Shown here: positions 1,680-15,413 of the stretch, in pieces
How positions within the stretch are numbered: position 1 is the first letter of the stretch
Layout of the letters: every line of letters starts with the position of its first letter
Source of the DNA: a virus
Strand: one strand, 5' to 3'
Virus record (IMG/VR): IMGVR_UViG_3300030107_004314
Span: 1-49,220 of that record
DNA: 49,220 nt
Program-made: the position numbers and the translations under genes
Notes under the pieces: generated by a model
The model's database searches: none
The model's input: only the letters and a program-made list of their open reading frames with translations
Told to the model about the DNA's origin: nothing

Positions 1680-1685
1680 TTGTTT

Positions 1686-1925
1686 TTATAAATTGCATCC
1701 CCAAGTAGTACAAGTACCTACCCAGTCTTCCTCTTCCAATTGTTGTAATCTTTCTTCAGTATCATAAAAATCTGTTGTATAAGCTTTATTAATTAGATTC
1801 CCCAAAGCCTGTTCTATAGGATTAGTAATCATTTCACATTGATTGCCTTTAATTCCTTCTACTTGTTCAGTTATTGTTTTACCATCTGGACTAATGATGT
1901 AACGAACTTTTGTTTGATTAGCCAT
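1686..1925 (-). CDS. DUF2997 family protein, 79 aa
   Basis: The pattern I/V-I-S-P-D-G-K...VEGIKGNQC...PIEQALGNL...FY matches what I remember of DUF2997, a short family common in cyanobacteria and often beside Ycf35/DUF1257. No DUF1257 partner is visible here. An extra acidic tail (LEEEDWVGTCTTWGCNL) adds two cysteines beyond the family core, one of them near the C-terminus. The biochemical role is unknown. A CACACA tract abuts the ATG directly and no Shine-Dalgarno is present. Confidence 0.65.
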   Translation of the reverse strand: MANQTKVRYIISPDGKTITEQVEGIKGNQCEMITNPIEQALGNLINKAYTTDFYDTEERLQQLEEEDWVGTCTTWGCNL

Positions 1926-1959
1926 GTGTGTAGTTGGTAGTGATCCTTTTTATTATGAA

Positions 1960-2766
1960 CTATTTTCCAAGTAAAGGCCAACTTCTCCACCATTTTGTAA
2001 GGATATATTTCTTACCTGATATAGGAGCTAAAGCTTCATGGTCAGTATAAGTATTTCTACTTCCATCTTTATTTAGATTATTCCAGGCAATCAATGTACC
2101 TGCTTTAGGTTTTAATTTAATACCTAATTTTATAAAGTGAGTTTCTCCTCCTTCTTCTACATCATTTAGATATAACATTGTTGTCCAAGTTCTTTGTCCC
2201 ATCCATTTACAATAGGTATCCATTTGATTTTCATTGTAATAATCTATATGTTGTTTATAAAATTGACCTATTTCATATTTTTGACCATGTATATTTCCAC
2301 CCATAAAAGGACTTAAGTTCATTAATCTTACAAATTGATCATCTATATAACTAAAATATGTATGATCAAAACGTGAAAAACCAATTTCACTACTAGTCCG
2401 GTGCTGGCTTATAACATTTTCATCATCTGTCGTATTAGTAGCAAGTTTACATGGTTCTGCTTTTTGATTTATATAACCAATTAACAATTCGCGATCAATA
2501 GGAGATATAAATTCTGGTAAACAATATAATTGAACATGAGGATTATCTATAAAAGATGCCTCCTTTGTAATAGCACAATTGTAAAATTTTAGAGGATCGA
2601 TTTCACTTGGGGCAGAGTTAAAGTTACAGGCTTCTATTAACCATTCAATTTGATCATCATCAAGATTGTAGTTATCTTTATAAAAACGAATAGCACCTAC
2701 AGAAGACCACCCTGATAGAGCATCAAGCTTAAATCTTTTTATTAAACCTTTTTTTGAAAAAACCAT
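1960..2766 (-). CDS. prolyl-4-hydroxylase-like 2OG-Fe(II) oxygenase, 268 aa
   Basis: The C-terminal half carries a textbook P4Hc domain. YEIGQFYKQHIDYY contains the HxD iron ligands (H173, D175). TMLYLNDVEEGGETHF is the core strand, KPKAGTLIAWNN the turn, and TDHEALAPISGKKYILTKWWR contributes the distal His (H243) and the 2-oxoglutarate-binding Lys (K252/K253). The N-terminal ~85 residues are not recognised. It probably hydroxylates a prolyl residue in a host or phage protein, but the substrate is unknown. There is no Shine-Dalgarno; the leader is C-rich (ccuccccc). Confidence 0.88.
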   Translation of the reverse strand: MVFSKKGLIKRFKLDALSGWSSVGAIRFYKDNYNLDDDQIEWLIEACNFNSAPSEIDPLKFYNCAITKEASFIDNPHVQLYCLPEFISPIDRELLIGYINQKAEPCKLATNTTDDENVISQHRTSSEIGFSRFDHTYFSYIDDQFVRLMNLSPFMGGNIHGQKYEIGQFYKQHIDYYNENQMDTYCKWMGQRTWTTMLYLNDVEEGGETHFIKLGIKLKPKAGTLIAWNNLNKDGSRNTYTDHEALAPISGKKYILTKWWRSWPLLGK

Positions 2767-2802
2767 TTAGAGGGGGAGGTCTAAAAACGGAACTAAAAAG
2801 GA

Positions 2803-2991
2803 TTAAACGGAAGTAAATTTACTAACCTTTTCCTTTTCATGTAGACCTTCAAGTTCATCATATATATGCATTAGATATCTTTCAATCTTACTGGTCTCAC
2901 TTAAAGCACCTATTGCTATGAGCATCGTTTCCACTTGTCTCTTACAATCACATACGATGCGACATTCAAGGGTTCCGTACTCATTAGTCAT
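2803..2991 (-). CDS. hypothetical protein, 62 aa
   Basis: Small mixed alpha protein with a C-x-C pair (VCDC, about residues 13-16) and a helical C-terminal half (ETSKIERYLMHIYDELEGLHEKEKV). It starts 3 bases after the stop of the zinc-ribbon gene, so it is in the same operon. No family recognised. Confidence 0.6.
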   Translation of the reverse strand: MTNEYGTLECRIVCDCKRQVETMLIAIGALSETSKIERYLMHIYDELEGLHEKEKVSKFTSV

Positions 2992-2994
2992 AGG

Positions 2995-3291
2995 TTACTT
3001 AACGTTTTTTCTAGTCTTATAAGAGACTATACCTTCAATTGTTTCGATTTCAACATTAAACTTTTCTGCATATTGCTCGTTGCTCAGTCTATAAAGGTTC
3101 TTACGTATCTCTCTGACACCATCATCAGGTATTTTTTTATTTCTTTTGTTATAAAGTTTTGTTACGTGCTGTTCTTTAGTTGTGAATTTAGTAGAACAGT
3201 CTAGACAGTGTTGATATCTATAAGTGAAGATACCTTTTGGGTCAGTCGAGCGAACCCTTGTATTCCTACTGAAACAATTAGGGCAGTACAT
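2995..3291 (-). CDS. zinc-ribbon plus helix-turn-helix protein, 98 aa
   Basis: The N-terminus MYCPNCFSRNTRVRSTD...YRYQHCLDCSTKFTT is a four-cysteine zinc ribbon (CxxC...CxxC) laid out like the N-terminal ribbon of the NrdR repressor. The C-terminal half (VREIRKNLYRLSNEQYAEKFNVEIETIEGIVSYK) looks like the helix-turn-helix that follows HNH or zinc domains in many phage proteins. There is no ATP-cone, so it is not NrdR itself. Probable DNA-binding regulator. It overlaps the ribbon-helix-helix gene upstream by 14 bases, suggesting coupled expression. Confidence 0.7.
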   Translation of the reverse strand: MYCPNCFSRNTRVRSTDPKGIFTYRYQHCLDCSTKFTTKEQHVTKLYNKRNKKIPDDGVREIRKNLYRLSNEQYAEKFNVEIETIEGIVSYKTRKNVK

Positions 3292-3436
3292 TAATAAATT
3301 GTTGTAGGGCTTTTCTTAAAACATCTGATCTAGTTAAACCATTTATTGTTAATTTATCTAAATCTTTAACTAATTCATTGTCTACACGAAAAGCTAAGGT
3401 AGACATATTTGTATATTGTTTTTTATATCTTTTCAT
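3278..3436 (-). CDS. ribbon-helix-helix regulator, 52 aa
   Basis: ATG at 3436, TAA at 3280-3278. The sequence STLAFRVDNELVKDLDKLTINGLTRSDVLRKALQQFI fits the CopG/Arc ribbon-helix-helix fold: a beta strand with alternating residues, helix A (ELVKDLDKL), the turn with GLTRSD, and helix B (VLRKALQQF). A basic N-terminal arm (MKRYKKQY) precedes it. The start overlaps the stop of the upstream gene by one base (TAATG). It probably binds operators as a dimer; a role in early-block control is inferred. Confidence 0.78.
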   Translation of the reverse strand: MKRYKKQYTNMSTLAFRVDNELVKDLDKLTINGLTRSDVLRKALQQFINVLP

Positions 3437-3729
3437 TATTCTCCCTCTAGAGGTTTAATAATTGCTTGCACTCTCCAATCCGCTTTTGGTTCTCCATCAT
3501 AATGAACTAAGTAATGCCACTCGGTTCTTTTTGCTCTGTTTAACTTTTTTTTAATATCCAGGATTGTTCCTTTTCTGTTGTTATCAAATTTTTGTTTACT
3601 CTTACGTGCATCAAGCATCCTTGTGTTTTCACTTCTTATATCTCTATTAGATATTCCAAGTGGTCCTTTGTTTCTTTCTTGAACACGATCATTAATTTTG
3701 TAGTCAGGTGTTGAAATTTTTTTAACCAT
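3436..3729 (-). CDS. basic beta-barrel-like protein, 97 aa
   Basis: The first ~55 residues are very basic (many Arg/Lys, RNKGPLGISNRDIRSENTR). The rest, KGTILDIKKKLNRAKRTEWHYLVHYDGEPKADWRVQAIIKPL, resembles a KOW/SH3-like small barrel of the 'G-V...Y-V-x-WD' type seen in phage proteins. Nucleic-acid binding is plausible. A CACACACA tract lies 11 bases before the ATG. The downstream ribbon-helix-helix gene is translationally coupled to it. Confidence 0.6.
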   Translation of the reverse strand: MVKKISTPDYKINDRVQERNKGPLGISNRDIRSENTRMLDARKSKQKFDNNRKGTILDIKKKLNRAKRTEWHYLVHYDGEPKADWRVQAIIKPLEGE

Positions 3730-3762
3730 GGAGATAAAAATGTGTGTGAATAGAAGGGGGTC

Positions 3763-3867
3763 TTACAAGCGTACACTTACTTGCTGGCCTATGCCCCGAG
3801 TCAATCCTCTCGGTAGGTGCCACCAGCAGTCCTCGATGGGAACCTTATCTCTATCAAGAGGCTTCAT
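3763..3867 (-). CDS. possible 34-aa peptide
   Basis: ATG at 3867, TAA at 3765-3763. The product starts MKPLDRDKVPIEDCWWHLPR. The 223-base gap that holds it (3730-3953) is more G+C-rich than its neighbours. No ribosome-binding site is obvious. It may be a true small protein or a by-product of a structured leader. Confidence 0.3.
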   Translation of the reverse strand: MKPLDRDKVPIEDCWWHLPRGLTRGIGQQVSVRL

Positions 3868-3953
3868 GACTAATACCGCTTGGTCCGAGCAGTATTGAAG
3901 CAATTGAAAGGCAGTGTAGTAAAGGATATATCACATCCAGCTACGCCCCATTA

Positions 3954-4493
3954 TTAGAAAGGAAGTTCGTCTTGTTTCTGGCAATGCTCATCCCAAGGAT
4001 GTACATATATATTGTCCAGACGATCTAAGTCATTGATACTTTGTCTAGGAATTTTGCCAGTACGAGCTTTAGGCATACCAGACTTGACCCATTCTTTGAA
4101 AGCTTCTTTCGTATCTTGATCTAGATCTTCATCCCACATTCTTTCCCATTCATCTTCTCTTTGATGTTTGATAAGAAGTTCAGTAGTTTTAATTAAACCT
4201 TTACTAGCACCTACAGCAGCAGATAAATTTCCTGCATCCCTAGCTGCTAGTCGATCTTCTTTAAGGCATTCCATTGTTTGACATATCATGAAAGTTTTTT
4301 CTGCTGGATCAACAGATTCAACTAACAAGATTTTTCCTTGTGCTACATAGTCTCTGGCTTGTCTCTCTGATACTTCATATTCTTCTGCAAGCATCTTCAC
4401 AACTTGATGAGTTGGTGTACCACGAGATAATAAATCCGCAGCACGTTCGTATCGCTGATCTAACTCAGCGTTGGTTGATCTTTGATTAGTCAT
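3954..4493 (-). CDS. helix-turn-helix protein with SSB-like DELPF tail, 179 aa
   Basis: Residues ~12-50 (RYERAADLLSRGTPTHQVVKMLAEEYEVSERQARDYVAQG) form a clear helix-turn-helix, like small-terminase or phage regulator N-domains. A helical middle follows. The last residues, KQDELPF, match the acidic Asp-x-x-Pro-Phe tip that single-stranded DNA-binding proteins use to recruit partners. No OB-fold is visible, so it is not an SSB. It could be a replication or recombination accessory factor, a terminase-like protein or a regulator. It overlaps its upstream neighbour by one base. Confidence 0.6.
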   Translation of the reverse strand: MTNQRSTNAELDQRYERAADLLSRGTPTHQVVKMLAEEYEVSERQARDYVAQGKILLVESVDPAEKTFMICQTMECLKEDRLAARDAGNLSAAVGASKGLIKTTELLIKHQREDEWERMWDEDLDQDTKEAFKEWVKSGMPKARTGKIPRQSINDLDRLDNIYVHPWDEHCQKQDELPF

Positions 4494-4789
4494 TATTCGA
4501 CTTCTTCCTCCGTAGCTTCTTTTTGTAGGTCTTCAAGAGTTTTACCGTCTTGTTGTGCCTTATGAATATACAACTGATTGTGTGCTCCTATGATGTCATA
4601 GGCTTTGCTCGCAATGATAGAGACTGTATCACCATGTTCGATATGCTCTGCTTCCATTGCCATACGTGCTCCAATAGCAGCACTCTCTGTTGTGGTGTAA
4701 ACACCTTGTATGTAAGGACCAGCTGGATCGAACACGACATATACAAGATCTGTCATGGTTTCATCTTCTTTGTTTTCAATGTTTAGCAT
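4493..4789 (-). CDS. hypothetical protein, 98 aa
   Basis: Contains DLVYVVFDPAGPYIQGVYTTTESAAIGARMAMEAEHIEHGDTVSIIA, a pattern seen in small phage proteins that read like a 'value plus modifier' alpha/beta fold. I cannot name a family. The C-terminal third is acidic and helical. Two starts are possible: ATG at 4789 next to a CACACACA tract (4793-4800), or ATG at 4756 (MTDLVYVV), which sits closer to the recognisable core. Confidence 0.6.
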   Translation of the reverse strand: MLNIENKEDETMTDLVYVVFDPAGPYIQGVYTTTESAAIGARMAMEAEHIEHGDTVSIIASKAYDIIGAHNQLYIHKAQQDGKTLEDLQKEATEEEVE

Positions 4790-4829
4790 GGCGTGTGTGT
4801 AAGAATTGTAAAGTTTTTGTAATTAAGCT

Positions 4830-5342
4830 TTACTTTTTTGAAAGATTTAAAGCACTTTTACTGTGTTCATCAATGTAGTTAGAAAATTCAGAAATAAATC
4901 CATTCCATTTCTGTCTTTCTTTGATGAATTTATCCCAGTCATCAAGACTCCAGAAGTCTCCTGGAAATAAAGTTGTCTTAGATAAGGATTGTTTTACCTT
5001 ATTAAGTAAGTGTTTTGCATCTTCAAAGTTGTTTCCATACTCTTCAGCACGTTTGAAGTCGTTATCGAAGCATGGAAAAGCTCTGTAAGTAAGAGCCAAG
5101 TTTGCTTGTGTAGGTAATTCGTGAGTGAATTTGTTAAACAGATGTTCAATTTCCAAAGGTCGGAAGTTGAATGCGTAAGCTAAGTGTTCTTCTATGTCTT
5201 CTGTTGACCATTTAATTAGGTCACTGAATACACGTTTAAAGATCCTTTGAGCTTGCTCTGGTGTTGCATCATCGTTCAGTAATGAACGGAGCAATCTTTC
5301 ATCTGCTTTGTCTGATGCGGTCTGTAAGTAAGTCATACTCAT
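4830..5342 (-). CDS. hypothetical helical protein, 170 aa
   Basis: Helix-rich, with no recognised domain (ASDKADERLLRSLLNDDATPEQAQRIFKRVF...). The frame extends upstream to 5387, but that extension reads through the 51-aa gene at 5299-5454 in another frame, so I place the start at ATG 5342 (MSMTYLQ) or 5336. The overlap of ~44 bases with the 51-aa gene suggests coupling or, less likely, a frameshifted single gene. Confidence 0.6.
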   Translation of the reverse strand: MSMTYLQTASDKADERLLRSLLNDDATPEQAQRIFKRVFSDLIKWSTEDIEEHLAYAFNFRPLEIEHLFNKFTHELPTQANLALTYRAFPCFDNDFKRAEEYGNNFEDAKHLLNKVKQSLSKTTLFPGDFWSLDDWDKFIKERQKWNGFISEFSNYIDEHSKSALNLSKK

Positions 5343-5454
5343 TAGAATCTTCGGTAGTCCAATCGTAAGTCCCTTCAAGGAAGGCATCTTGTTTTATTGC
5401 GATAACTTTCAATCGTGTTTTAAGATCATCATCGCTGTTAGATTTCTTCGTCAT
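5299..5454 (-). CDS. small acidic protein, 51 aa
   Basis: ATG at 5454 overlaps the stop of the upstream gene (ATGA); TGA at 5301-5299. The product MTKKSNSDDDLKTRLKVIAI... is hydrophilic and helical, with acidic patches (DWTTEDSNEYDLLTD). The coupled start and lack of any gap make it credible. It overlaps the next gene out of frame. Confidence 0.6.
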   Translation of the reverse strand: MTKKSNSDDDLKTRLKVIAIKQDAFLEGTYDWTTEDSNEYDLLTDRIRQSR

Positions 5455-5696
5455 TGATCATGAGGTTGTAGTTGTACTGTCCAATTCTTTAGATTGGTAA
5501 GAGGTACTCCTATAGTTCCCTCCATCAGTTCTCCTTCTCCGTCATACTCCTCTATATGGAGTATTGGTTCAAGGGAATTGTCTGGTGAAATGTTGATAGC
5601 TAAGCCAATACATTTGAACTCAGCACCATGTTCATTAGTAACTAGTGCTCCCTTTAAAGCATCAACGCTGACTGTGGAGTTGTTAGAGAGTTTCAT
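5451..5696 (-). CDS. hypothetical beta-rich protein, 81 aa
   Basis: Strand-rich (STVSVDALKGALVTNEHGAEFKCIGLAINI...LHIEEYDGEGELMEGTIGVPLTNLKNWTV), like a small barrel that could bind nucleic acid or protein. ATGA-type overlaps connect it to both neighbours (5693-6211 upstream and 5299-5454 downstream), so translation is probably coupled across three genes. No family recognised. Confidence 0.6.
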   Translation of the reverse strand: MKLSNNSTVSVDALKGALVTNEHGAEFKCIGLAINISPDNSLEPILHIEEYDGEGELMEGTIGVPLTNLKNWTVQLQPHDQ

Positions 5697-6211
5697 TCTG
5701 TTTCCTCCTCTTGTGTTTCTTCTGCTTCTAATTCAGCCAGTTTTTCTTTTTCTTTTAAATCGTCATAGATAGCTTCAACTTTGTCGCTTTCCATTCTCCA
5801 TATCTTACGTAATCGTTCTTCCTCTTTTTCTAATTTTGGAATTTGATCTTCTAATTCAACAATTTTTCTAAAGTCATTTCTTTTGGCTTGGCGTAAAACC
5901 TCTAGTGACTCAGATATATTTTCATGTAATGTTTCGTCTGCACCCCACATGCCTAAATATTTACGTGCAAATTTCTTTTCTTTCTTACCAATTGGTGAGC
6001 CACATTCAAAATCACATCGTAATTCATTCAAGATGCCTAAAGCTGCATCATGTGTAGTTGAATATTGAGTTAGATTTTCAACTTTATTTTTGACTTCAGA
6101 CAGTTTATCTCTAACAACATTATGTTCCGCATCAGCTTTATCTAAAGCAGGATACTGGCCTTTTGTTTCTTTTCTGTAGTCCCAAAAGTAATCAGGTAGT
6201 TTTTTTGTCAT
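5693..6211 (-). CDS. coiled-coil protein, 172 aa
   Basis: Nearly all helical and strongly charged. Heptad-like stretches run about residues 22-55 (DAEHNVVRDKLSEVKNKVENL) and 105-172 (LRQAKRNDFRKIVELEDQIPKLEKEEERLRKIW...), ending in an acidic EETQEEETE tail. The centre holds one C-rich segment (LRCDFECGSPIGKKEKKFARKYL). Probably an elongated dimer. Role unknown. Confidence 0.6.
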   Translation of the reverse strand: MTKKLPDYFWDYRKETKGQYPALDKADAEHNVVRDKLSEVKNKVENLTQYSTTHDAALGILNELRCDFECGSPIGKKEKKFARKYLGMWGADETLHENISESLEVLRQAKRNDFRKIVELEDQIPKLEKEEERLRKIWRMESDKVEAIYDDLKEKEKLAELEAEETQEEETE

Positions 6212-6215
6212 TGGT

Positions 6216-6533
6216 TTAGTATTCAGAAGAAAATAGAATTGTTGTGTAGCAAAGATCAGGCTCGTTAGTTTTCATGCCATAACCATTAGTGATGATCCAG
6301 AGATCTCTGCCATCATGTACCTCGTTATAAACAGAGTGAAGGCGACCTCCAGATCTTCTCATGAAAGCTGTATCATTTAGCTTTCTGTCATCTTGTGTAA
6401 TGTCACCCCAATCTCCTCGGAAGTGCCTAGCTAAATACCTTTCAACGATATTGTCAGGGACAGTAGCAGCAACCTTATTGGTAGCTACAATTCTTCCAAA
6501 TGCTGGAGAGTAAAGACTAGCGATGTCAGCCAT
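6216..6533 (-). CDS. conserved plasmid/phage 'GDWG-EEY' protein, 105 aa
   Basis: The core ARHFRGDWGDITQDDRKLND...GRLHSVY...DLWIITNGYG...YTTILFSSEY matches a small family I remember from plasmids and phages (HxxGDWG...D...N...R.S.Y...WIIT...TT.LlP.EY), sometimes mislabelled as a restriction subunit. The biochemical role is not known to me. The ATG at 6533 (MADIASLYSP) is chosen because the upstream 53-aa gene ends 2 bases before it; the longer frame to 6581 would overlap that gene. Confidence 0.65.
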   Translation of the reverse strand: MADIASLYSPAFGRIVATNKVAATVPDNIVERYLARHFRGDWGDITQDDRKLNDTAFMRRSGGRLHSVYNEVHDGRDLWIITNGYGMKTNEPDLCYTTILFSSEY

Positions 6534-6535
6534 AA

Positions 6536-6697
6536 CTAGGTGAGGATGTGGTGAATTAAGAGGAAGGTGATACAGATACAAGCAGCGTACAGCTGGAGTT
6601 GTATCCTTTTGATTGTTTCTTCCCTTGTCTCCAGTAGGCAGATTGCTTCCGTAAGGATTTCATCTTTCCTACTGGATTCAGTAGTGGAGTGAGTCAT
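6536..6697 (-). CDS. small membrane protein, 53 aa
   Basis: ATG at 6697 overlaps the stop of the upstream gene (ATGA), TAG at 6538-6536. A charged N-terminal helix (STTESSRKDEILTEAICLLE) is followed by a C-terminal hydrophobic segment (LYAACICITFLLIHHIL, residues ~36-52), giving a tail-anchored topology. Coupled to the gene before and almost abutting the gene after. Function unknown. Confidence 0.6.
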   Translation of the reverse strand: MTHSTTESSRKDEILTEAICLLETREETIKRIQLQLYAACICITFLLIHHILT

Positions 6698-7122
6698 TCA
6701 GGATCTACTGGACTTATGTAAAAGGTTGGATCATTTTCAGCAACACCTGTGTCTTGCTCTAACTCTTGTTCAGTTCTGAGATCCTTTGCCATTCTTTTTG
6801 TTTCTAAAGAGTATGTCCAGTTTGCTCTTGCTTTTAGCTGTACTGCATAGCCATTTTTAATACAATCTAATTTTTCTTTAGCTTGCATATTTGAGTTGAC
6901 CATGTAGTTAGCTATCTGTTTTGAAAGCTTGTCGTATGGCTTTCTTATTTCTTCATCAAAAGTTTTGATTTGTTCTCTCATCTTGTGATGTTGTTCTAGT
7001 AAGGATTGAATAGAAGCTTGTGATAGTTTCTGTTCTCCTTCATAACTAACAACTGTTCTGTCAATATGAGGTACAGCTGGGATTGCTGTCTTTGTTTTCT
7101 TTGTTGATTTAGAGGAGGTCAT
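6694..7122 (-). CDS. hypothetical helical protein, 142 aa
   Basis: The basic, Thr/Lys-rich N-terminus (TSSKSTKKTKTAIP) precedes a helical region (LSQASIQSLLEQHHKMREQIKTFDEEIRKPYDKLSKQIANYM) and an acidic end. The central helix resembles phage proteins found beside recombination genes, but I cannot assign it. A CACACACA tract lies 6 bases before the ATG. Confidence 0.6.
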   Translation of the reverse strand: MTSSKSTKKTKTAIPAVPHIDRTVVSYEGEQKLSQASIQSLLEQHHKMREQIKTFDEEIRKPYDKLSKQIANYMVNSNMQAKEKLDCIKNGYAVQLKARANWTYSLETKRMAKDLRTEQELEQDTGVAENDPTFYISPVDPE

Positions 7123-7138
7123 AAGTAAGTGTGTGTAA

Positions 7139-7870
7139 TTAAGAGCCAGTTAAGGCACGAGTGGGAGAAGTTACGCCCTCGGTCTGCTTACGCAGTCCCA
7201 CACCTTGGGCAGCATCCTGGCCTTCATGGTGACCATGTCCAGCACTGTAACGACTGGTTGAACTGCGAATATCAGGATACTTTTCCAGCATGAATGATAG
7301 TGCAGCCTTTTGCTCTCGTTGGTTATGTTCAACCACTACAAGGGCTGGCTGATTCTCTTGACTTGTCTCTTGAGATTCTTGAATCTTTTTAAGTTCAACT
7401 AATCGTTTGTTTATTGCAAGAGCAAATCCTTTACGGAAGTTTGCACGAAACGATCTTGGAGTATGCTTGTTTTCTTTCTTCGCTTGCTTCGATAGTCTTT
7501 CCATTTCATCAATCAAATACTCAGAGTACAATTCGATCTGAATTTGATTTGATTTACTGGCTATAATTTTTAATTGTTTTCCATCTAAGCGATCATTATC
7601 TATCATTAAGACTCCGTTGTAATACTTAGCGACTGCTGCAATGAGTCTGTAAATTGCTATGTCTCTTTTCTTATATGTTTTTCCAAAAGATGTTTCAATA
7701 ATTACATCTAATTCTGGATCAAAGTCAGCAGTAATATCCTGCTTAGCTACTCCATGTTGCACACATAATGTTTCGAACTTTTGAATTGCAACTGCTGCTT
7801 CATTAGCATTAGAGCTTTTAGAAAGTCGTAGTAACTTAGCTAGTTTTGATTTGATCTCATTTATATTCAT
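7139..7870 (-). CDS. DUF2786-containing protein, 243 aa
   Basis: The start MNINEIKSKLAKLLRLSKSSNANEAAVAIQKFETLCVQHGV is a clear DUF2786 N-domain: a helical pair with the 'LLaLAxSxNxxEAxxAxxKAxxLxxxygl' pattern. The middle (residues ~70-130) is the mixed alpha/beta second part of such proteins, and the Gly/His-rich C-terminus (RYSAGHGHHEGQDAAQG) matches the family's usual G-rich end. The family is widespread in phages and mobile elements with no proven function. It overlaps the gene upstream by 4 bases (ATGA). Confidence 0.78.
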   Translation of the reverse strand: MNINEIKSKLAKLLRLSKSSNANEAAVAIQKFETLCVQHGVAKQDITADFDPELDVIIETSFGKTYKKRDIAIYRLIAAVAKYYNGVLMIDNDRLDGKQLKIIASKSNQIQIELYSEYLIDEMERLSKQAKKENKHTPRSFRANFRKGFALAINKRLVELKKIQESQETSQENQPALVVVEHNQREQKAALSFMLEKYPDIRSSTSRYSAGHGHHEGQDAAQGVGLRKQTEGVTSPTRALTGS

Positions 7871-8324: not shown

Positions 8325-8364
8325 TTAATTGGGTGGTGATGTGTGTGTAAGAAAGGTAAGATTG

Positions 8365-8607
8365 TTAATCTTCCTTTGCAAGCCTTTGTCTCAAAGCTTT
8401 ACGTATAAAGTCAGCCCCTGGATCGTCTATTAAATCAAATAGATTCATCATTTCAGGTGATGTGCGACACATATGTTCAAGGTGATCTAAGCCAAGTTTG
8501 ACGCATTGCTGCATCAGTTCTTTTCCTTCTTTCTCATCGCCTCTTTCATAAGCTTTTTCTCCTTCGATTCTTAAAGCGTCAAGGAGTTGTGGAGTGAAGT
8601 CAGTCAT
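8365..8607 (-). CDS. hypothetical helical protein, 80 aa
   Basis: All-helical and acidic (PQLLDALRIEGEKAYERGDEKEGKELMQQCVKLGLDHLEHM), with a TPR-like spacing of residues in the middle. Preceded by the longest AC tract in the window (8613-8625). No family recognised. Confidence 0.6.
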   Translation of the reverse strand: MTDFTPQLLDALRIEGEKAYERGDEKEGKELMQQCVKLGLDHLEHMCRTSPEMMNLFDLIDDPGADFIRKALRQRLAKED

Positions 8608-8612
8608 TAATT

Positions 8613-8625
8613 TGTGTGTGTGTGT
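8613..8625 (-). promoter_or_regulatory. AC-repeat leader (longest example)
   Basis: On the coding (minus) strand this reads ACACACACACACA and lies 5 bases before the ATG at 8607, where no Shine-Dalgarno exists. Nine other starts in the block have a shorter copy. It could act in translation initiation or as a transcript-processing or promoter element; sequence alone cannot decide. Confidence 0.5.
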
Positions 8626-8632
8626 GTTTAAT

Positions 8633-8824
8633 TTAGTCAGAGTCTTTTAGCCAAGGCATCATTCTTATATCTTTGAAATATTCATAAGGCTCTTGTTCTA
8701 AAGCAGCCTTGAAGAGAGCAATCATGTCTGTAACTTTGATTGGATCATTAGCATTTGTTTTGCGTTGTCCAAGACTCTCAATTACGTACTTGATTTGATC
8801 ATCTGTGAGTAAGGTTTGCTTCAT
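8633..8824 (-). CDS. hypothetical protein, 63 aa
   Basis: Reads like a small helical bundle (LLTDDQIKYVIESLGQRKTNANDPIKVTDMIALFKAALEQEP), with a C-terminal YFKDIRMMPWLKDSD. The ATG shares a base with the stop of the upstream gene (TAATG). No family recognised. Confidence 0.6.
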   Translation of the reverse strand: MKQTLLTDDQIKYVIESLGQRKTNANDPIKVTDMIALFKAALEQEPYEYFKDIRMMPWLKDSD

Positions 8825-9006
8825 TAATCCTCTTCCTTTGCAGGGTATTTTTCAGGGTGCAATTCAAATTCTATTAGTTTTGCTAGTCGAGCAGGTTGAA
8901 TGTGTAGATCTCTAGCAGCCTTTTCTAATAGTGCTGTCTTGATTAGTTCAAGAGAAGTTCTTGTGAACTCAAGAGGGATGATGTCAGTTGGTGATTTGGT
9001 TTTCAT
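8824..9006 (-). CDS. hypothetical helical protein, 60 aa
   Basis: ATG 9006 (MKTKSPTDI) is preferred because it overlaps the stop of the gene upstream as ATGA; a frame extension to 9024 would overlap more. Helical core (LELIKTALLEKAARDLHIQPARLAKLIEFELHP) could be a small helix-turn-helix, but this is weak. No family recognised. Confidence 0.55.
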   Translation of the reverse strand: MKTKSPTDIIPLEFTRTSLELIKTALLEKAARDLHIQPARLAKLIEFELHPEKYPAKEED

Positions 9007-9239
9007 GGTTGGCATTGGCTCCAATAGCTGTCAAGTGTGTAAGGCATTTTAGATCGCTCTTCCTTTTGAGCGTTGATGATAGTTTGATACTTTTCCTTTT
9101 CTTTGTCGTTGATCAATGATACATAACGCTGTATCACTTCTTCTAATAGCATGACATCGCAGTGACAGGCTTTGATTAGTTGAGTGGAGAAAGATTCATT
9201 CATCGAATCCATAGGATGATCAGGACTAACTGTATCCAT
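9003..9239 (-). CDS. hypothetical acidic helical protein, 78 aa
   Basis: Start set at ATG 9239 (MDTVSPDHPMDSMNESF); an in-frame GTG at 9251 is the alternative. Helical (LIKACHCDVMLLEEVIQRYVSLINDKEKEKYQTIINAQKEE), with C-H-C near residue 27. It is the first gene after the gap that carries the hairpin array. Confidence 0.5.
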   Translation of the reverse strand: MDTVSPDHPMDSMNESFSTQLIKACHCDVMLLEEVIQRYVSLINDKEKEKYQTIINAQKEERSKMPYTLDSYWSQCQP

Positions 9240-9354
9240 AATGCTAGACACTTATACATTGTCCAGCCTTTTTTAATACTTAAGTTATCATTTCTCATAA
9301 GGTTCTTGGTTTAGTTAGATAATTGTCTTTGGTGGTACTGGAGAGAACAAATTA

Positions 9355-9543
9355 TTACTTGTCTAGTATGTTTAGTTCATATATAAGGTGAATAACTTTG
9401 ATACTTACCATTACATAGAAGCTATACATAATAATCATGCCGATTTTGTTATGTCTGGAACCTCGTCTGTAGCTGTGGCATCCTACTGGTCCTCGATCCC
9501 AACCATCAACCATATAGTCTGTGGTTTTAAGTTCTTTGATCAT
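9355..9543 (-). CDS. possible small membrane protein, 62 aa
   Basis: MIKELKTTDYMVDGWDRGPV... has a charged, Gly/Arg-rich first half and a hydrophobic second half (KIGMIIMYSFYVMVSIKVIHLIY). No Shine-Dalgarno, and it is isolated between two gaps, so it might not be expressed. It ends where the hairpin array begins on the other side. Confidence 0.4.
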   Translation of the reverse strand: MIKELKTTDYMVDGWDRGPVGCHSYRRGSRHNKIGMIIMYSFYVMVSIKVIHLIYELNILDK

Positions 9544-9577
9544 GAGTTTAAAAACCAGGAAAAAGTTTAAATTAATA

Positions 9578-9602
9578 GATAGTTCTTAATCGTTGAACTA
9601 TC
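9578..9602 (+). ncRNA. hairpin element, copy 0 (no upstream module)
   Basis: Stem GATAGTTC (9578-9585) pairs with GAACTATC (9595-9602) around loop TTAATCGTT. It is followed by AAGCGAT like the other copies, but the upstream CCCAATCATC module is missing, so it is a partial or divergent copy. Strand is a working choice (see findings). Confidence 0.6.
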
Positions 9603-9652
9603 AAGCGATAGGGCTGAGTCGTGCTGATACGCGAAGAGGGGAAGTGGATTCC

Positions 9653-9720
9653 CAATCATCACTACGTAGAGCTTGATCGAGTTGAAAGTAGTTCTTAATC
9701 GTGGAACTACTAAGCGATTG
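9653..9720 (+). ncRNA. hairpin element, copy 1
   Basis: P2 hairpin AGTAGTTC (9687-9694) with GAACTACT (9704-9711), loop TTAATCGTG. Outer pairing CAATC (9653-9657) with GATTG (9716-9720). TACG (9663-9666) can pair with CGTG (9700-9703) in the loop through one G-U, giving a pseudoknot. Conserved linker CTTGATCGAGTTGAA. Confidence 0.7.
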
Positions 9721-9792
9721 AGGCGTTTCGTTTGGAACCGCGTGGCAAAACAATGAGTCGAGACGAGGTGAGCCAAAATGAGTTAGAAATCC

Positions 9793-9860
9793 CAATCATC
9801 ACCACGAAGGGCTTGATCGAGTTGAAGTCAGTTCTTAATCGTGGAACTGACAAGCGATTG
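9793..9860 (+). ncRNA. hairpin element, copy 2
   Basis: P2 hairpin GTCAGTTC (9827-9834) with GAACTGAC (9844-9851), loop TTAATCGTG. Outer pairing CAATC (9793-9797) with GATTG (9856-9860). CACGA (9803-9807) is complementary to TCGTG (9839-9843) in the loop. After the element, ACCGTA and TGCGGT can form a further stem. Confidence 0.72.
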
Positions 9861-9952
9861 AGTGGAACCGTAGCGAGACGAAATGCGGTGAGATGTGCGA
9901 AGATGCAGGGCATCAATACGAGCCGAAAAGAATCGAATTGAAGCAAGTATCC

Positions 9953-10018
9953 CAGTCATAACCACGTAGGGTGTAACTGAGTTGAAGCTAGTTCTATCGT
10001 GGAACTAGCAAGCGATTG
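9953..10018 (+). ncRNA. hairpin element, copy 3
   Basis: P2 hairpin GCTAGTTC (9987-9994) with GAACTAGC (10002-10009), loop shortened to TATCGTG. Outer pairing CAGTC (9953-9957) with GATTG (10014-10018) keeps a G-U in place of A-U. CACG (9963-9966) is complementary to CGTG (9998-10001). The linker is more diverged (GTGTAACTGAGTTGAA). Confidence 0.7.
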
Positions 10019-10101
10019 AATAGGGTTGTGACGCATAGCAGCGAGCGTAAATGAAACGACCTGCATCGAGTAGGACTTACACCTAATGGATGCCTAAACA
10101 T

Positions 10102-10596
10102 TTACTCATCAGGTGGAGTTAACTTAGGCATCATCCCTCCTTGTAGAGCTTGTTTCCTTGCTCCTTCTGCTGACGCTGCAATAAATGCATGTCTACTTTG
10201 ATGCCCACGTAATTCATCCCTCTGATACTTACTCAGATTTGCTTCATCAACATTTCTAAAAAGTTTTCTAGTAATCTTTTTATGTTGACGTTGCTTTGAG
10301 TTAGCTTTCTTATTCAGGTACTCAACTGCTTCAGCATCAGTGAGGATACGTAGATTACCAGACTCTTGTTTGATAACTAGAGGTTTGTTAATCAGATCTC
10401 TCATATCTTCTAACCAAGCTTTAACTTTTAAAGTCTGGAAAGGTTCAGCCGATGCTGGCATGATAGTGACTTCTTTCTTATCAAAAAGGATTGAATACAT
10501 TTCCAATACCTTTTGATAGTCAATCAATTCACCTTTCTGAATATCACGCCAAGCGATACCAGCAATTTCTAATGGGACTTCGTTTGGATTTTTCAT
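10102..10596 (-). CDS. hypothetical basic protein, 164 aa
   Basis: ATG 10596 (MKNPNEVPLEIAG) overlaps the upstream stop as ATGA, so I prefer it to a longer frame beginning at 10653. The first ~95 residues look like a folded alpha/beta domain (IAGIAWRDIQKGELIDYQKVLEMYSILFDKKEVTIMP). The C-terminal half is basic (KKANSKQRQHKKITRKLFRNVDEANLSKYQRDELRGHQSRHAF), as for nucleic-acid binding. It is coupled to the 214-aa gene upstream, so the two probably work together. Confidence 0.62.
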   Translation of the reverse strand: MKNPNEVPLEIAGIAWRDIQKGELIDYQKVLEMYSILFDKKEVTIMPASAEPFQTLKVKAWLEDMRDLINKPLVIKQESGNLRILTDAEAVEYLNKKANSKQRQHKKITRKLFRNVDEANLSKYQRDELRGHQSRHAFIAASAEGARKQALQGGMMPKLTPPDE

Positions 10597-11237
10597 GAGA
10601 GTTCGATTTCCTCGATTTGGTTTACTTGAAAACGTCCATAGCGTGGCCGCCATGTACCAAGACCAGCAGATTTGCCAGCCATAACGCAGATCTTTTTAAG
10701 GTCTGATACTTCTAACAGTTCCGTATTCAAATTCAATTCATAAGTGCATAGCCAGCCAGCTGGAATACAAATACGATTTACCCACACTCCCCTACTGGTA
10801 CTAGCAGCATGTTGGAGCTTTGGTTCACGACTGTTAAACATTTCAACAGCATCCTTTGGACCATCAAATTCAATTTCAGGATTACTGTAAACAATGATCG
10901 CTGACTTTGAAGTTTTACCTAGCTTCCAGTTGGTAGCAGCATCACGCAAACTACGTTGGAAGTTAGCTCCTGGCAGGTAGGGTGTACTGAAACCATCGAA
11001 GGCAACTGTGTTGTCCTCAGGGTCTACGATGCATGTCCCTTCTTCTTTCCAGTAGCCAGAGTAAAGCCAATCAAGAGTACGTACTACACGATGTACATCA
11101 TCTGTCTTGGCCTTACCCTTCTTATCAGTAAATTGTTTCTTCTGTTTTGCTGGCTCTCCTAAAGGATCGGAGTATTCAACATTGGATAACATGAGAGGGG
11201 CTGTTCCCTCTACTGTCACTGAGTAAGTTTTGTTCAT
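10593..11237 (-). CDS. conserved phage protein with TAPLMLSN and GTWRPRYGRF motifs, 214 aa
   Basis: The N-terminal YSVTVEGTAPLMLSN...DPL and the C-terminal KSAGLGTWRPRYGRFQVNQIEEIE fit a phage/plasmid family I remember as 'VtI.G.tPLLmh...' to 'G.G.wRPrfGRF.V'. The order of motifs, and the middle YLPGANFQRSLRDAATNWKL, recall the RRM-like folds of Cas7/RAMP proteins ('PGSSLRGALR'), but the link is a resemblance only. Function unknown. The leader holds ACACACACACAC (11245-11256) and no Shine-Dalgarno. Confidence 0.6.
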   Translation of the reverse strand: MNKTYSVTVEGTAPLMLSNVEYSDPLGEPAKQKKQFTDKKGKAKTDDVHRVVRTLDWLYSGYWKEEGTCIVDPEDNTVAFDGFSTPYLPGANFQRSLRDAATNWKLGKTSKSAIIVYSNPEIEFDGPKDAVEMFNSREPKLQHAASTSRGVWVNRICIPAGWLCTYELNLNTELLEVSDLKKICVMAGKSAGLGTWRPRYGRFQVNQIEEIELS

Positions 11238-11342
11238 TGAGTTGGTGTGTGTGTGTTCAGAGTGGGACTTACATCACAGTAGTGAATGCCAAGGATTTCT
11301 GTTGTATTAAATGATTGTCATTGGAGTCAAGTTCATTACAAG
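11238..11342. other. gene-free gap, 105 bp
   Basis: It holds the AC tract of the downstream gene (11245-11256). I find no ORF, terminator or hairpin in the rest. Confidence 0.5.
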
Positions 11343-11819
11343 TTAGGTAAATACCATCTCCCCTAGTGGGACTGTGTCTCTGCACATAGGAGTATCAAAG
11401 ACAAGCCACTGAGACTCAAGAGCGTTCTGTTCCATTTGACCTCGTTGATCGGGTTGGAAATACCATTTGCCAGCCTGTCTTTGGGCAAACTCCTTCATTA
11501 CTTTCTGTTCTTTCTTCTTATACCTTTTGAAAAAGTATAAGGCACTAGAAATTTTAACCAGTTGAGTATGTTTCTCATGCTCTGAGACTTTGCTTAGAGC
11601 ACCATGAAGACAGCAATGTTCAAAGTCTTCTGCTGATATTCCTTTATCTACTGAGAAGAAATCATCATAGGCAATCTGTTCACCATCTTGGAAGGTAGCA
11701 ATGTAATTCTGAGCTACCCAAAACCCCTCAATGTTATGAGAGTCTTTGAAGTAAAGATCAATATCTTCAAGATCCTCTACCTTTGTAGGTATTTTGGATT
11801 TCTTATTGTTCTTTGTCAT
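11343..11819 (-). CDS. hypothetical protein, 158 aa
   Basis: Mixed fold with aromatic clusters (IDLYFKDSHNIEGFWVAQNYIATFQDGEQIAYDDFF) and C-terminal WLVFDTPMCRDTVPLGEMVF. It has a good Shine-Dalgarno (AAAGGAG) 6 bases before the ATG as well as an upstream ACACACACA tract, so the two signals can coexist. No family recognised. Confidence 0.62.
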   Translation of the reverse strand: MTKNNKKSKIPTKVEDLEDIDLYFKDSHNIEGFWVAQNYIATFQDGEQIAYDDFFSVDKGISAEDFEHCCLHGALSKVSEHEKHTQLVKISSALYFFKRYKKKEQKVMKEFAQRQAGKWYFQPDQRGQMEQNALESQWLVFDTPMCRDTVPLGEMVFT

Positions 11820-11898
11820 GGTTGACTCCTTTGTGTGTGTACTGATTGTGACAAACGAATTAATTCAGAGTTGAATTTTCGTGCGAAAGACCAAAAGA

Positions 11899-12414
11899 TT
11901 AGTCATCCCAGTTGATGTCAGTAAGATCCCCTACCTCATCAGGAGCACATTCATCTGACCACTCCCATGTAAGAAACTGATACCCTTTCTCTTTGCGTAA
12001 GTAATGAAAGATCTCATCTGGAGGACACCAAGGTGTTTGAAAGTCAAGGATGAGCATGTTGTTTGCTACCTGATGTTCGACATCAACATCATGTGTATCC
12101 CATTTGGTTCCCCAATGCTTTCGACACCAGTCATACCAACGATCATCATTCCTTCCACTACTAGGCCAGTTCCACCAGACTTCTTCTTCACCATTAGCAA
12201 GCTTCATGACTTTCTTTTCTGGTAGCTCACCTTTCTTTGCTTTGACTTCACCTTGAGAGTCTCTTATGTCCTCTGAAGCAGGTGTGTTAGGCCAGTCAGG
12301 TTGAGGTACAAGAGTATTGAATGGTCTCTTAGCCTCGAAGATGTCTGCTAGTTCTTTAAGCTTGCTAGGGTCGTCATGAGTGAGCATGACTGAGTTGCTG
12401 ATCCAATTAGGCAT
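11899..12414 (-). CDS. YubB/DUF1281-like ferredoxin-like protein, 171 aa
   Basis: ATG 12414 begins MPNWISNSVML, the hallmark N-terminus of this plasmid/phage family ('MPNWCSN'). Later come WYDWCRKHWGTKWDTHDV and LDFQTPWCPPDEIFHYLRKE, matching the family's 'nWGTKWdv...f.TaWsPP' core. The C-terminus is acidic (ECAPDEVGDLTDINWDD). The fold is ferredoxin-like and the role unknown. A GGAGG site lies 7 bases before this ATG; the frame extends to 12471 but would overlap the upstream gene. Confidence 0.8.
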   Translation of the reverse strand: MPNWISNSVMLTHDDPSKLKELADIFEAKRPFNTLVPQPDWPNTPASEDIRDSQGEVKAKKGELPEKKVMKLANGEEEVWWNWPSSGRNDDRWYDWCRKHWGTKWDTHDVDVEHQVANNMLILDFQTPWCPPDEIFHYLRKEKGYQFLTWEWSDECAPDEVGDLTDINWDD

Positions 12415-12583
12415 TAGTTTCCTCCTCGATTGAGTGAACAGTTTGTGTGTCGTAATCTGTGAATTCATCACAGTGATCTATAGAACCATCTTTGATAGCG
12501 TTTAAAGCTTCTTCTTTTGAGTCTGCTTCTACTATGTAATCGAAGAATTGATTACATTGCATTGTGATTTCATAAACAGTCAT
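12407..12583 (-). CDS. small acidic protein, 58 aa
   Basis: Start at ATG 12583 (MTVYEITMQCNQFFDYIVEADSKEEALNAI), sharing one base with the upstream stop (TAATG). The pattern 'Y-EI...V-A-S-EEAL' is that of a short ferredoxin-like domain common in phage ORFs. Acidic (DHCDEFTDYD...EEE). It overlaps the next gene by 8 bases. Confidence 0.62.
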   Translation of the reverse strand: MTVYEITMQCNQFFDYIVEADSKEEALNAIKDGSIDHCDEFTDYDTQTVHSIEEETNA

Positions 12584-12975
12584 TAGTTTTCTCCTCTGAT
12601 AGTGAAAGTTTTCCATCCGTCTGGAGTAAAGACATAGAGATACTCACAGTCCATACCACTCCAGAATTTAATAGCTTCTCTCTTTGAGAGGCTGATTCTA
12701 GGCTTACATTGTGACCAACTGTCACCTCTTTCTTTGTGATACAAGGGCTGCGGTTCCCTTGCCTCTGCGAAGTAACCACGTCCTCCTGTTAACCAAGTTG
12801 ATCTTGTCTCAAGTGAGGACATATTCCCTTTCTTTATCAGTTGAACCACTGATGTCTTGTCCTTGTACTTCTTTAACTCTTTCTCTTTGATCCTTGGCTC
12901 GCCATCCCAGTGACAGTAGACAGCTTTGATTCTTCCTGAAGGCATTACGTAGCCTATTGCTGATCGTGTACTCAT
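12583..12975 (-). CDS. conserved phage 'YCHWDG' protein, 130 aa
   Basis: MSTRSAIGYVMPSGRIKAVYCHWDGEP...ELKKY...VVQLIKKGNMSSL is a signature I know from many phages and cyanophages ('TRS.Ig......i..vYCHWDGY'). The C-terminus ends in a strand-rich YLYVFTPDGWKTFTI. Function not established to my knowledge. It has a strong ribosome site (AGGAGGAATC) before the ATG at 12975. Confidence 0.82.
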   Translation of the reverse strand: MSTRSAIGYVMPSGRIKAVYCHWDGEPRIKEKELKKYKDKTSVVQLIKKGNMSSLETRSTWLTGGRGYFAEAREPQPLYHKERGDSWSQCKPRISLSKREAIKFWSGMDCEYLYVFTPDGWKTFTIRGEN

Positions 12976-12983
12976 GATTCCTC

Positions 12984-13289
12984 CTATGTATATGAAGCAG
13001 CATCTTGTGCTGGATCATAATCATCATCTTCATCCTCCTCACGTATCCATTCAACAGGTGAGCCAACTGCAATCTCACCTCCCTCCCCATCAGGCTCTCC
13101 TTCGAAGTAGAAGTCCCTTACATCTATTGCGTGTTGCTTGAGAGACTCTACTGATTCTTCATACTCAGTAGGTATGCACTCATCTCCATAGTTGTAGCGA
13201 CCTCTCTGTAAGTCTTTCTTTTCAAGTTCTTCGATATGCTTGACAAAATCTTCTGTGAGTTTCCAGATGTCTTTGTAGGTTGTTTCCAT
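12984..13289 (-). CDS. very acidic protein, 101 aa
   Basis: Asp/Glu-rich throughout (FEGEPDGEGGEIAVGSPVEW, IREEDEDDDYDPAQDAAS), with a helical first half (YKDIWKLTEDFVKHIEELEKKD). The high negative charge recalls phage DNA-mimic or inhibitor proteins, but no family is recognised. CACACACA lies 11 bases upstream of the ATG. Confidence 0.6.
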   Translation of the reverse strand: METTYKDIWKLTEDFVKHIEELEKKDLQRGRYNYGDECIPTEYEESVESLKQHAIDVRDFYFEGEPDGEGGEIAVGSPVEWIREEDEDDDYDPAQDAASYT

Positions 13290-13328
13290 GATTAGATAAT
13301 TGTGTGTGCTGGTGGTGAGAGGTCAGGA

Positions 13329-13595
13329 TTAATCTACCCACATAACTGGTGCTCCCTCCTCTTTAATTTTCTTAGAGGCGTGAAAGAATTCAAGGCTACC
13401 TCCATCGTTGCCTTCATCGTCCTGTAAAGGAATGATTGTAAGTCCATCGTCTAGTTGTATCAAGAGAGGTTGCTTACACCATCCACTCTCCTTCGCCTCC
13501 TCTGAGGTCATGTAGCGTACTGTCTGGATCTTCTTGCCTACCAATGCTTTGGTCATGCGTGTGTTCCAGCCTTTAACAGTTGTTTTAGTAGTCAT
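13329..13595 (-). CDS. conserved phage protein (VRYMT...DDEGNDGGSL), 88 aa
   Basis: LVGKKIQTVRYMTSEEAKESGW...LLIQLDDGLTIIPLQDDEGNDGGSL matches a short strand-rich family I recall from several phages. Its molecular role is unknown. The tract TACACACAC lies 13 bases before the ATG; here the tract falls in the last codons of the methyltransferase gene upstream. Confidence 0.68.
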   Translation of the reverse strand: MTTKTTVKGWNTRMTKALVGKKIQTVRYMTSEEAKESGWCKQPLLIQLDDGLTIIPLQDDEGNDGGSLEFFHASKKIKEEGAPVMWVD

Positions 13596-13597
13596 GA

Positions 13598-14539
13598 TTA
13601 ATAAAGAAGTGTGTGTAGTTGTTTGATGCGAGCCAAGGGTACGGCTGCGACCTGAGGAACTATGGAGTTACCCACTGCCCTTAGACGAGCCACCCTTCGG
13701 GATAGCCCATCATCTCCAGAGGGAAGGCAGGGTTTAGCCACATATCCTCTCCAGTCAGGGTCGAGTGTGTGTGGTTGAGGACTCCAGCAAGGCGTTTCTT
13801 CTTTGCTGCTTTCTCGTAGTTCATGTTCTCTCCGCAATCCTTGTGATCCCTCGCTGTTGGAGTAGGTAAGTTCAGGGCTATAGCCTCCTCCAAGTTGCCT
13901 TTGTCCCTCCCTCTTTGCTTCACGTTCTTTAAGTTCTCCGCCATTGCTCCTGTTGCTCTTGGAGTTGGTAGAAGTGCTGCTAGTAGTGGCTTCCCTCCCT
14001 GCTTGAAGGGTACTCTCTGCTCCACCTTTGAGGATGCTACTGGCGTAGGCAATGAACCAGAGTCTGGACCTTTTGTGACAGGCTCCCACATCTTTTGCCT
14101 GAATAACTGACCATTCGACAGCATCAAACCCTGAGTTGGTAAGACTGTAGAGGATTTTTTGGAAAGTCTCCCCGTCTTGGTGTGACAACGTATGTCTGAC
14201 ATTTTCGAAAAGGATGAACTTACATTCAGACTCCCGAGCCAGTCTGAGGACTTCAAAAAATAGCCCACTTCTTTCACCCTCGAGTCCCTCCATTCGTCCT
14301 GCCAGACTGAGATCTTGACATGGGAACCCTGCCGTAATGATGTCGAATTGTCCTTTGGTTGCTTTAAATGTTTTAATGTCATTGTGAATAGGTACGTTAG
14401 GAAAGTTTTTGCGTAGGACTGACTGACAGTAGGGATCAATCTCTACAAATTGTGTTGTCTTGAAGCCTCCTACTAGGCTTTCTGAAGCGTAGGCAAACCC
14501 ACCTATACCCGAGAAAAGATCTAAAACTTTTAGTGTCAT
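13598..14539 (-). CDS. C5-cytosine DNA methyltransferase, 313 aa
   Basis: Catalyses transfer of methyl from S-adenosylmethionine to cytosine C5. Motif I is DLFSGIGG (residues 7-14), motif IV is GFPCQDLS with the catalytic Cys74, motif VI is FENVR (111-115), motif VIII is CHKRSRLWFIAY, and motif X ends with GNSIVPQVA. The target-recognition region (~170-280) is Ser/Glu-rich and hydrophilic. No restriction partner is seen next to it, so an orphan phage enzyme protecting DNA from host restriction is likely; specificity cannot be read. It starts by coupling (shared base) with the gene upstream. Confidence 0.93.
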   Translation of the reverse strand: MTLKVLDLFSGIGGFAYASESLVGGFKTTQFVEIDPYCQSVLRKNFPNVPIHNDIKTFKATKGQFDIITAGFPCQDLSLAGRMEGLEGERSGLFFEVLRLARESECKFILFENVRHTLSHQDGETFQKILYSLTNSGFDAVEWSVIQAKDVGACHKRSRLWFIAYASSILKGGAESTLQAGREATTSSTSTNSKSNRSNGGELKEREAKREGQRQLGGGYSPELTYSNSEGSQGLRREHELRESSKEETPCWSPQPHTLDPDWRGYVAKPCLPSGDDGLSRRVARLRAVGNSIVPQVAAVPLARIKQLHTLLY

Positions 14540-15402: not shown

Positions 15403-15413
15403 TGGTTTGTACC

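Follow-up and report, generated by a model that had tools for sequence, protein, structure and literature searches.

The stretch analysed here, referred to as the window, is a linear IMG/VR virus record of 49,220 bases (IMGVR_UViG_3300030107_004314). On its minus strand lies a leftward block of non-structural genes (about 1.65–17.9 kb; 1650–17900) in which runs of alternating A and C, (AC)n, stand shortly ahead of start codons; all tracts are confined to this block, at 1.9–15.6 kb. Their distribution, their near-exclusivity with Shine–Dalgarno (SD) sequences, their conservation and their swaps with SD sequences in related phages can be read directly from the genomes. As judged from sequence, the tracts are probably part of short 5′ leaders on which ribosomes start early or non-structural genes without an SD or coupling to an upstream gene. 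Because the usual ribosome signal is missing at these cluster-heading genes, the AC run probably aids ribosome start.

The ten tracts that a sequence-only reading had placed ahead of leftward starts are all present on the minus strand at the positions it claimed, with two corrections: the tract it had ended at 8625 runs to 8627 and is 15 nt long, and the gap from tract to ATG, put at 0–17 nt, measures 0–15 nt (0, 11, 3, 6, 15, 5, 7, 12, 11 and 13). It had overlooked CACACAC at 15620–15626, ahead of the start at 15602. Most tracts do follow a T (7 of 10; A stands before 8627 and 11256, and G before 13308), and it was also right that one tract falls in the final codons of the methyltransferase gene and that just one of the starts has a clear SD as well, which is the start at 11819. 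The ten main tracts are 7–15 nt long.

1925–1931, minus strand: ACACACA; its final A doubles as the first base of the ATG of gene 1686–1925 (gap 0 nt); without SD
3741–3748, minus strand: CACACACA; 11 nt from the ATG of gene 3436–3729; closes a 224-nt intergenic gap
4793–4800, minus strand: ACACACAC; 3 nt from the ATG of gene 4493–4789
7129–7136, minus strand: ACACACAC; right behind the stop of gene 7139–7870 and 6 nt from the ATG of gene 6694–7122
8340–8348, minus strand: ACACACACA; 15 nt from the ATG of gene 8085–8324
8613–8627, minus strand: ACACACACACACACA, 15 nt; 5 nt from the ATG of gene 8365–8607
11245–11256, minus strand: (AC)6, 12 nt; 7 nt from the ATG of gene 10593–11237
11832–11840, minus strand: ACACACACA; 12 nt from the ATG of gene 11343–11819; the sole tract followed by a good SD (AAAGGAG)
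13301–13308, minus strand: CACACACA in the leader TCTCACCACCAG-CACACACA-ATTATCTAATC-ATG of gene 12984–13289; gap 11 nt
13609–13616, minus strand: ACACACAC; within the final codons of the methyltransferase gene 13598–14539 and 13 nt from the ATG of gene 13329–13595
15620–15626, minus strand: CACACAC; a weaker eleventh case, 17 nt ahead of the ATG of gene 15414–15602

Tract distribution and start context in the leftward block

From a reading of the block, we curated 46 leftward starts and, once the tract had been seen, defined it as an alternating A/C run of at least 7 nt no more than 30 nt from the start. Such a run stands at 11 of the 46 starts, the ten listed earlier plus 15602. All 11 tract starts are uncoupled (a gap of at least 1 nt), while the 24 starts that lie in an overlap with the gene before them have no tract (Fisher P=5e-5), in agreement with the claim that overlap-joined genes lack it. 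The minus strand of the block holds 15 AC runs of at least 7 nt. The leaders of the 22 uncoupled genes, 660 nt in all, contain 11 of them, and the remaining ~15.6 kb contains 4. The density elsewhere in the block predicts 0.17 leader runs against the 11 observed (Poisson P~7e-17), and runs are ~65-fold denser in leaders than in the rest of the block. Runs of at least 8 nt number 9 in the pooled leaders, compared with a mean of 0.37 and a maximum of 3 in 500 dinucleotide-preserving shuffles. The sequence-only reading had asked whether the tracts exceed shuffled gaps and whether AC runs are equally dense elsewhere on the same strand; they do exceed them, and the density is not equal. The tracts are not exclusive to leaders, as runs of 7–9 nt lie within genes at 12444–12450, 13765–13773, 14939–14945 and 15780–15786. 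No other dinucleotide forms a run of at least 7 nt in the uncoupled leaders of the block. The plus strand has 2 AC runs of at least 7 nt and none of at least 8 nt, and AC runs of at least 6 nt are found in 0 of 31 leaders of the rightward structural block.

An SD is absent from 10 of the 11 tract starts. The mean SD pairing energy is +1.9 kcal/mol at tract starts and −4.4 kcal/mol at the others, and an SD of −5 kcal/mol or better occurs at 1 of 11 tract starts versus 17 of 35 others. Coupled starts have an SD of this quality in 16 of 24 cases, sited within the end of the upstream gene. Moreover, G accounts for 4.4% of the last 25 nt in tract leaders compared with 23% at coupled starts, and the energy needed to open the start site is lowest for tract starts (3.8 versus 7.3 kcal/mol for coupled starts; P=0.003 against all others). 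Since the tract starts are uncoupled, SD-poor and G-poor, the tracts mark the heads of single genes or small coupled clusters. Their placement follows the ATG: in the six tract-holding gaps of 39–224 nt, the tract is always no more than 25 nt from the ATG (naive P 0.002), and the first base of the tract lies 17–25 nt ahead of the ATG in 18 of 25 instances.

The uncoupled leaders of the block are CA-rich, nearly G-free and weakly structured, and in the window and its relative G007 about half of them have an (AC)n core, usually beginning ~20 nt before the ATG. Such an unstructured ACA-rich stretch of mRNA could serve as a landing site for the 30S subunit where an SD is absent, and ribosomal protein S1 would perhaps mediate this landing, as proposed for ACA enhancers of Salmonella. 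Coupled genes mostly use an SD located within the final part of the gene ahead of them.

Conservation and signal swaps in related phages

The minus-strand block contains small genes, mostly without assigned function, and also encodes a 2OG-Fe(II) oxygenase-like protein, a DNA methyltransferase and a GP88-family protein; the plus-strand block encodes the terminase, the major head protein and a portal-like protein. The last of these shares 55% identity with a protein of Synechococcus phage S-EIVl, a cyanophage in culture that comes from a lake in the high Arctic. The head genes have close relatives in other IMG/VR contigs, and two of these relatives, G007 and G012, carry hli-like genes; a 50-aa hli-like copy matches Pfam Chloroa_b-bind at E=2e-4, just below the family cut-off. 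Based on the S-EIVl-like portal protein, the head-gene relatives and the hli-like genes of G007 and G012, the window phage likely has a picocyanobacterial host. G007 (L020–L021) and G012 (L025–L028) come from different metagenomes, but their hli clusters are identical and the two contigs adjoin within the orthologue of the 16497 gene; they probably derive from a single cyanophage population that has three hli-like genes. Because the G012 contig terminates within this orthologue, it is uninformative on the early block.

Early proteins of G007 (L009; IMGVR_UViG_3300030331_004188) are mostly 60–95% identical to those of the window where they can be aligned. The genes starting at 11819 and 11237 have no counterpart in G007, so that 8 of the 10 tract sites are comparable. 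A run of at least 7 nt is retained at 7 of these 8 (13616, 13308, 8627, 8348, 7136, 4800 and 1931), and the lack of conservation at orthologous starts that the sequence-only reading had named as counting against the tracts is not seen. In G007, the 1931 tract is ACACACATGGC at 14312, intact although its upstream flank is much changed, the 4800 tract is CACACAC at 11754, the 8348 tract is conserved at 8228, the 8627 tract has only 8 nt at 7952, and the 3748 tract has decayed to TTCACTCAAC. The 7136 tract is kept in four phages (the window, G007, G009 and G013) with a varying spacer to the ATG; the protein of the gene upstream of it, 7139–7870, is 43–45% identical in G009 and G013. Near-identical copies of the 13308-type leader stand at two G007 sites (3825 and 4055), with a related one in G013 (13828). 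The 13616 tract and the TATTAATCATG downstream of it are retained in G007 and G009, and the next gene differs in G007. Across relatives, the end of the tract lies 0–21 nt from the ATG.

Two genes carry different signals in different phages. Their sites in the window are as follows:

12976–12989, minus strand: SD leader (TAGGAGGAATC) of the MSTRSAIGY gene 12583–12975
4494–4515, minus strand: SD-bearing end of the upstream gene before the coupled MTNQRS gene 3954–4493

In the window, the MSTRSAIGY gene begins 8 nt past its neighbour with TAGGAGG, whereas in its 83% identical G007 orthologue the AC-tract leader ACACACACA replaces the SD. In the window and G007, the MTNQRS gene is coupled and preceded by an SD, whereas in G009 and G013 the CA-rich leader TTACTTACACACCACC stands ahead of it. 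Similarly, homologues of gene 10593–11237 on otherwise different environmental phage contigs (L003–L008; 57–63% identity) have other leaders without a tract. The two swaps and these tract-less homologues therefore indicate that the signal belongs to the resident genome and not to the gene.

Further homologues of gene 10593–11237 occur in Gordonia and Mycobacterium phages at 28–30% identity, and this gene has probably moved horizontally. As a separate observation, G007, G009 and G015 also retain the 9-nt CACACACAC run that lies within the methyltransferase gene at 13765–13773 (PHTLD codons), which probably reflects the protein sequence.

Among coding-strand AC runs of at least 7 nt, an open reading frame starts within 22 nt in 11 of 15 cases in the window, 10 of 14 in G007, 3 of 5 in G009 and 2 of 4 in G013. 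Beyond these four, strict (AC)n tracts ahead of starts are rare, and a search with a fixed leader pattern matched G007 and G009 only. Looser CA-rich, G-poor leaders persist in more distant relatives and in cultured S-EIVl, where the leaders of early genes on the minus strand include CTCACCTAACCAACTCATTACTAACTCACC-ATG. Since distant relatives carry this looser form, the repeat is a lineage-specific form, and pure (AC)n is limited to the window phage and its nearest relative. On the early-block strand of G009 and G013, C is raised and G lowered in the last 30 nt, and the late strand of the same phages differs; the automatic (heuristic) gene calls behind this comparison are noisy, and it is read for trends only. 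G-depletion near starts is present in Syn5 as well, so that lowered G near starts is a general trait. In S-EIVl (KJ410740; L010/L162), many early genes at 25.7–44.0 kb have nearly G-free C/A/T leaders, for example ahead of 36999–38756 and 41277–41408. Searches for wider relatives of two block genes gave little: a scan with gene 6694–7122 returned none, and a profile search with 7139–7870 added distant DUF2786-like proteins only.

Two broader origins of the tract were rejected. A general cyanophage habit is contradicted by Syn5, P-SSP7 and PSS2, in which no AC run of at least 7 nt stands ahead of called starts. A host-wide signal is ruled out by the pattern TACACACACN{2,16}ATG, which gave 67 matches in 201 picocyanobacterial genomes (WH7803 family) versus 66 for a reversed-pattern control (a sum over two control columns) and was thus not enriched.

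Translation and the competing readings

The offset tied to the ATG, the low structure, the SD swaps and the lack of an upstream element make a role in translation more likely. The claim of a repeated initiation signal is supported, as the tract is specific to uncoupled starts, near-exclusive with the SD, conserved and absent upon coupling.

In the transcriptional case, which we regard as unlikely, the tracts would be sites where transcription begins, or belong to a promoter specific to the phage, at cluster heads, with leaders of ~20 nt. The tracts do stand at cluster heads, where promoters would be, the distance of ~20 nt from tract start to ATG suits short leaders, and TANNNT is found 3–25 nt upstream of 6 of 10 tracts versus 2.0 at random block positions (P 0.006). 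However, these matches lie at scattered offsets, and AT-rich gaps were compared with mostly coding controls. Across 27 tracts of four phages, no strongly conserved column is observed 1–45 nt upstream, and TATAAT matches are no better upstream of tract starts than before other genes. Sigma-70-like sites are fewer in the block than in shuffles (33 versus 45.9), and a sigma-70-type promoter with −10/−35 hexamers at a fixed distance was rejected at the tracts. Furthermore, the DNA upstream of 7136 and 13616 is the 3′ end of a conserved gene, and the tract stays close to the ATG even in gaps of 79–224 nt.

Between the two divergent blocks lies an imperfect palindrome of 27 nt, 18248–18274, of the form GCGTAACTG-(9 nt)-CAGTTATGC. 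The window, G012, G008/G009, G010 and G011 share its arms without change, whereas the loop varies among them, and G220 carries a variant of the palindrome; UGUGU opens the loop in the window, G012 and G008/G009.

A control site is a distinctly unlikely reading, in which the tracts would be bound by an RNA-binding protein, of the phage or of the host, or by a GU-rich small RNA, either of which would switch the gene set jointly in the manner of GcvB at CA-rich leaders. GcvB pairing silences ACA enhancers (PMC3879156), and UGUGU occurs in the loop of the conserved hairpin at 18248–18274 in the window, G012 and G009. Nevertheless, the loop is other than UGUGU in G010, G011 and G220, such a hairpin was not found in tract-bearing G013, and the only Rfam RNA match in the window is the tRNA. 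A small RNA from the 18.25-kb hairpin is disfavoured because its UGUGU loop is conserved in only part of the family, and not as such pairing would require. The variable tract length, 7–15 nt, is also unlike a fixed protein site. There is a comparably slim chance that the (AC)n leader is a low-complexity start signal of the phage family's own, which would replace the SD at early-block cluster heads and be read by a dedicated phage or host factor for selective early translation.

It is very unlikely that the tracts are functionless, whether as slippage-expanded or copied spacer DNA or as brief stretches of shared sequence that facilitate recombination at gene borders. Leaders are indeed copied between genes (the 13301–13308 type occurs twice in G007, and the 4793 and 8341 leaders are 81% alike across 26 nt), orthologous tracts vary in length, and the 13616 tract persists though the following gene differs. 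Yet a neutral spacer would not be expected to be absent at coupled starts, to keep to one strand and orientation, to stay near the ATG in long gaps or to be nearly exclusive with the SD. Moreover, a tract is retained where the flank has diverged (1931 versus 14312 in G007), and other dinucleotide repeats are absent from these leaders.

Direct pairing with 16S rRNA outside the anti-SD is scarcely credible. GUGUG/UGUGU segments are present in the picocyanobacterial rDNA examined, with a best (AC)5 duplex of about −8 kcal/mol, but the scan took in flanking rRNA-operon DNA, so that the best duplexes are not clearly in 16S, and it gave no evidence of a site in the 3′ tail. Judging from their position and from 16S structure, the sites inside the 16S gene lie in internal helices and not in the free 3′ tail.

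Several observations weigh against an SD-independent leader as the function of the tracts. Among uncoupled starts with gaps of at least 10 nt, 9 of 16 have an AC run of at least 6 nt and the remainder have none; because 7 of 16 lack it, the tract is not required for an uncoupled start. The opening energy does not differ significantly between tract starts and uncoupled starts without a tract (P=0.12, n=11 each). The enterobacterial precedent works together with an SD, which is absent here. In addition, the pure repeat is strong in just one relative, where part of its conservation may come from shared ancestry. Finally, given the lack of enrichment in cyanobacteria, any host factor would have to recognise a motif that the host itself uses little.

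Other features of the window were noted, those marked by eye being visual assignments. The region 18370–18580 is a possible replication origin, with DnaA-box-like TGTGGATAA/TTTTCCACA sequences and about three iteron-like repeats of AATACGTCTAC..TAGTTATGAC or similar (both by eye). The apparently non-coding stretch 9567–10100 holds 3–4 diverged copies of AGTTCTTAATCGTGGAACTAxxAAGCGATTGAG, spaced 109–158 nt apart. At the left end (1–513), a minus frame from ~513 to the contig edge encodes a long PNQQ repeat (MATKKYGYNQYKPDG...NQQPNQQP) that is open at the record end (by eye).

Known start-associated elements and significance

In its action, the closest match to the tracts is the ACA enhancer. 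Yang et al. reported for Salmonella that translation is enhanced by ACA motifs ahead of the SD: replacement of all four ACA motifs of dppA lowers expression more than 100-fold, the spacing is variable, G is the most harmful substitution, and S1 was suggested as a possible partner (PMC3879156). The same source cites ACAA repeats that are active without an SD. The statement of the sequence-only reading that CA repeats near a start boost translation in E. coli is upheld as to an enterobacterial ACA precedent, whereas the CA repeats cited there act downstream of the start (PMC3879156). Like the tracts, the enterobacterial enhancers (yifK, dppA and gltI leaders; GcvB targets) are ACA-rich, G-poor upstream stretches with free spacing; they stand beside an SD in single host genes, whereas the phage tracts have no nearby SD at 10 of 11 starts and recur across the block.

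CA-rich leaders that are active in bacteria also include the tobacco mosaic virus (TMV) omega leader with its CAA repeats; these are G-poor and raise translation, as the tracts may. The omega leader differs in being a single leader with another repeat, from a plant virus.

In genome arrangement, the closest match is SAS/ESAS of cluster K mycobacteriophages (PMC3203893). Both are short repeats of a single orientation that stand before uncoupled genes of the non-structural half, are uncommon in the host and are conserved at the same gene families between related phages, in our case at 7 of 8 comparable G007 starts and at fewer in G009 and G013. SAS, however, is a fixed 13-bp GGGATAGGAGCCC that has an AGGAG core and includes an SD, whereas the tracts are (AC)n of low complexity, vary in length and lack an SD; because of this difference, they are not SAS members. 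Cluster A mycobacteriophage stoperators, contrasted with SAS in the same work (PMC3203893), are likewise repeated one-orientation sites in intergenic gaps, but they are fixed 13-bp sites that act on transcription, whereas the tracts vary in length and are tied to start codons.

SD-less cyanobacterial genes are reported to compensate with weaker 5′ structure (PMC6847405), the same pairing of SD absence with weak structure as at the tract starts. The abstract and the section consulted describe no repeated CA motif, and the tract is not enriched before ATG in the 201 genomes.

Ribosome start without an SD on bacterial and phage genes is still poorly understood. The block is a natural experiment: between related phages, the same genes have an SD where they are coupled and a CA tract where they come first, and the proposition that a CA tract can replace an SD is thereby directly testable. 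With mycobacteriophage SAS as the first, the tracts add a second case of a start-associated repeat that is specific to phages.

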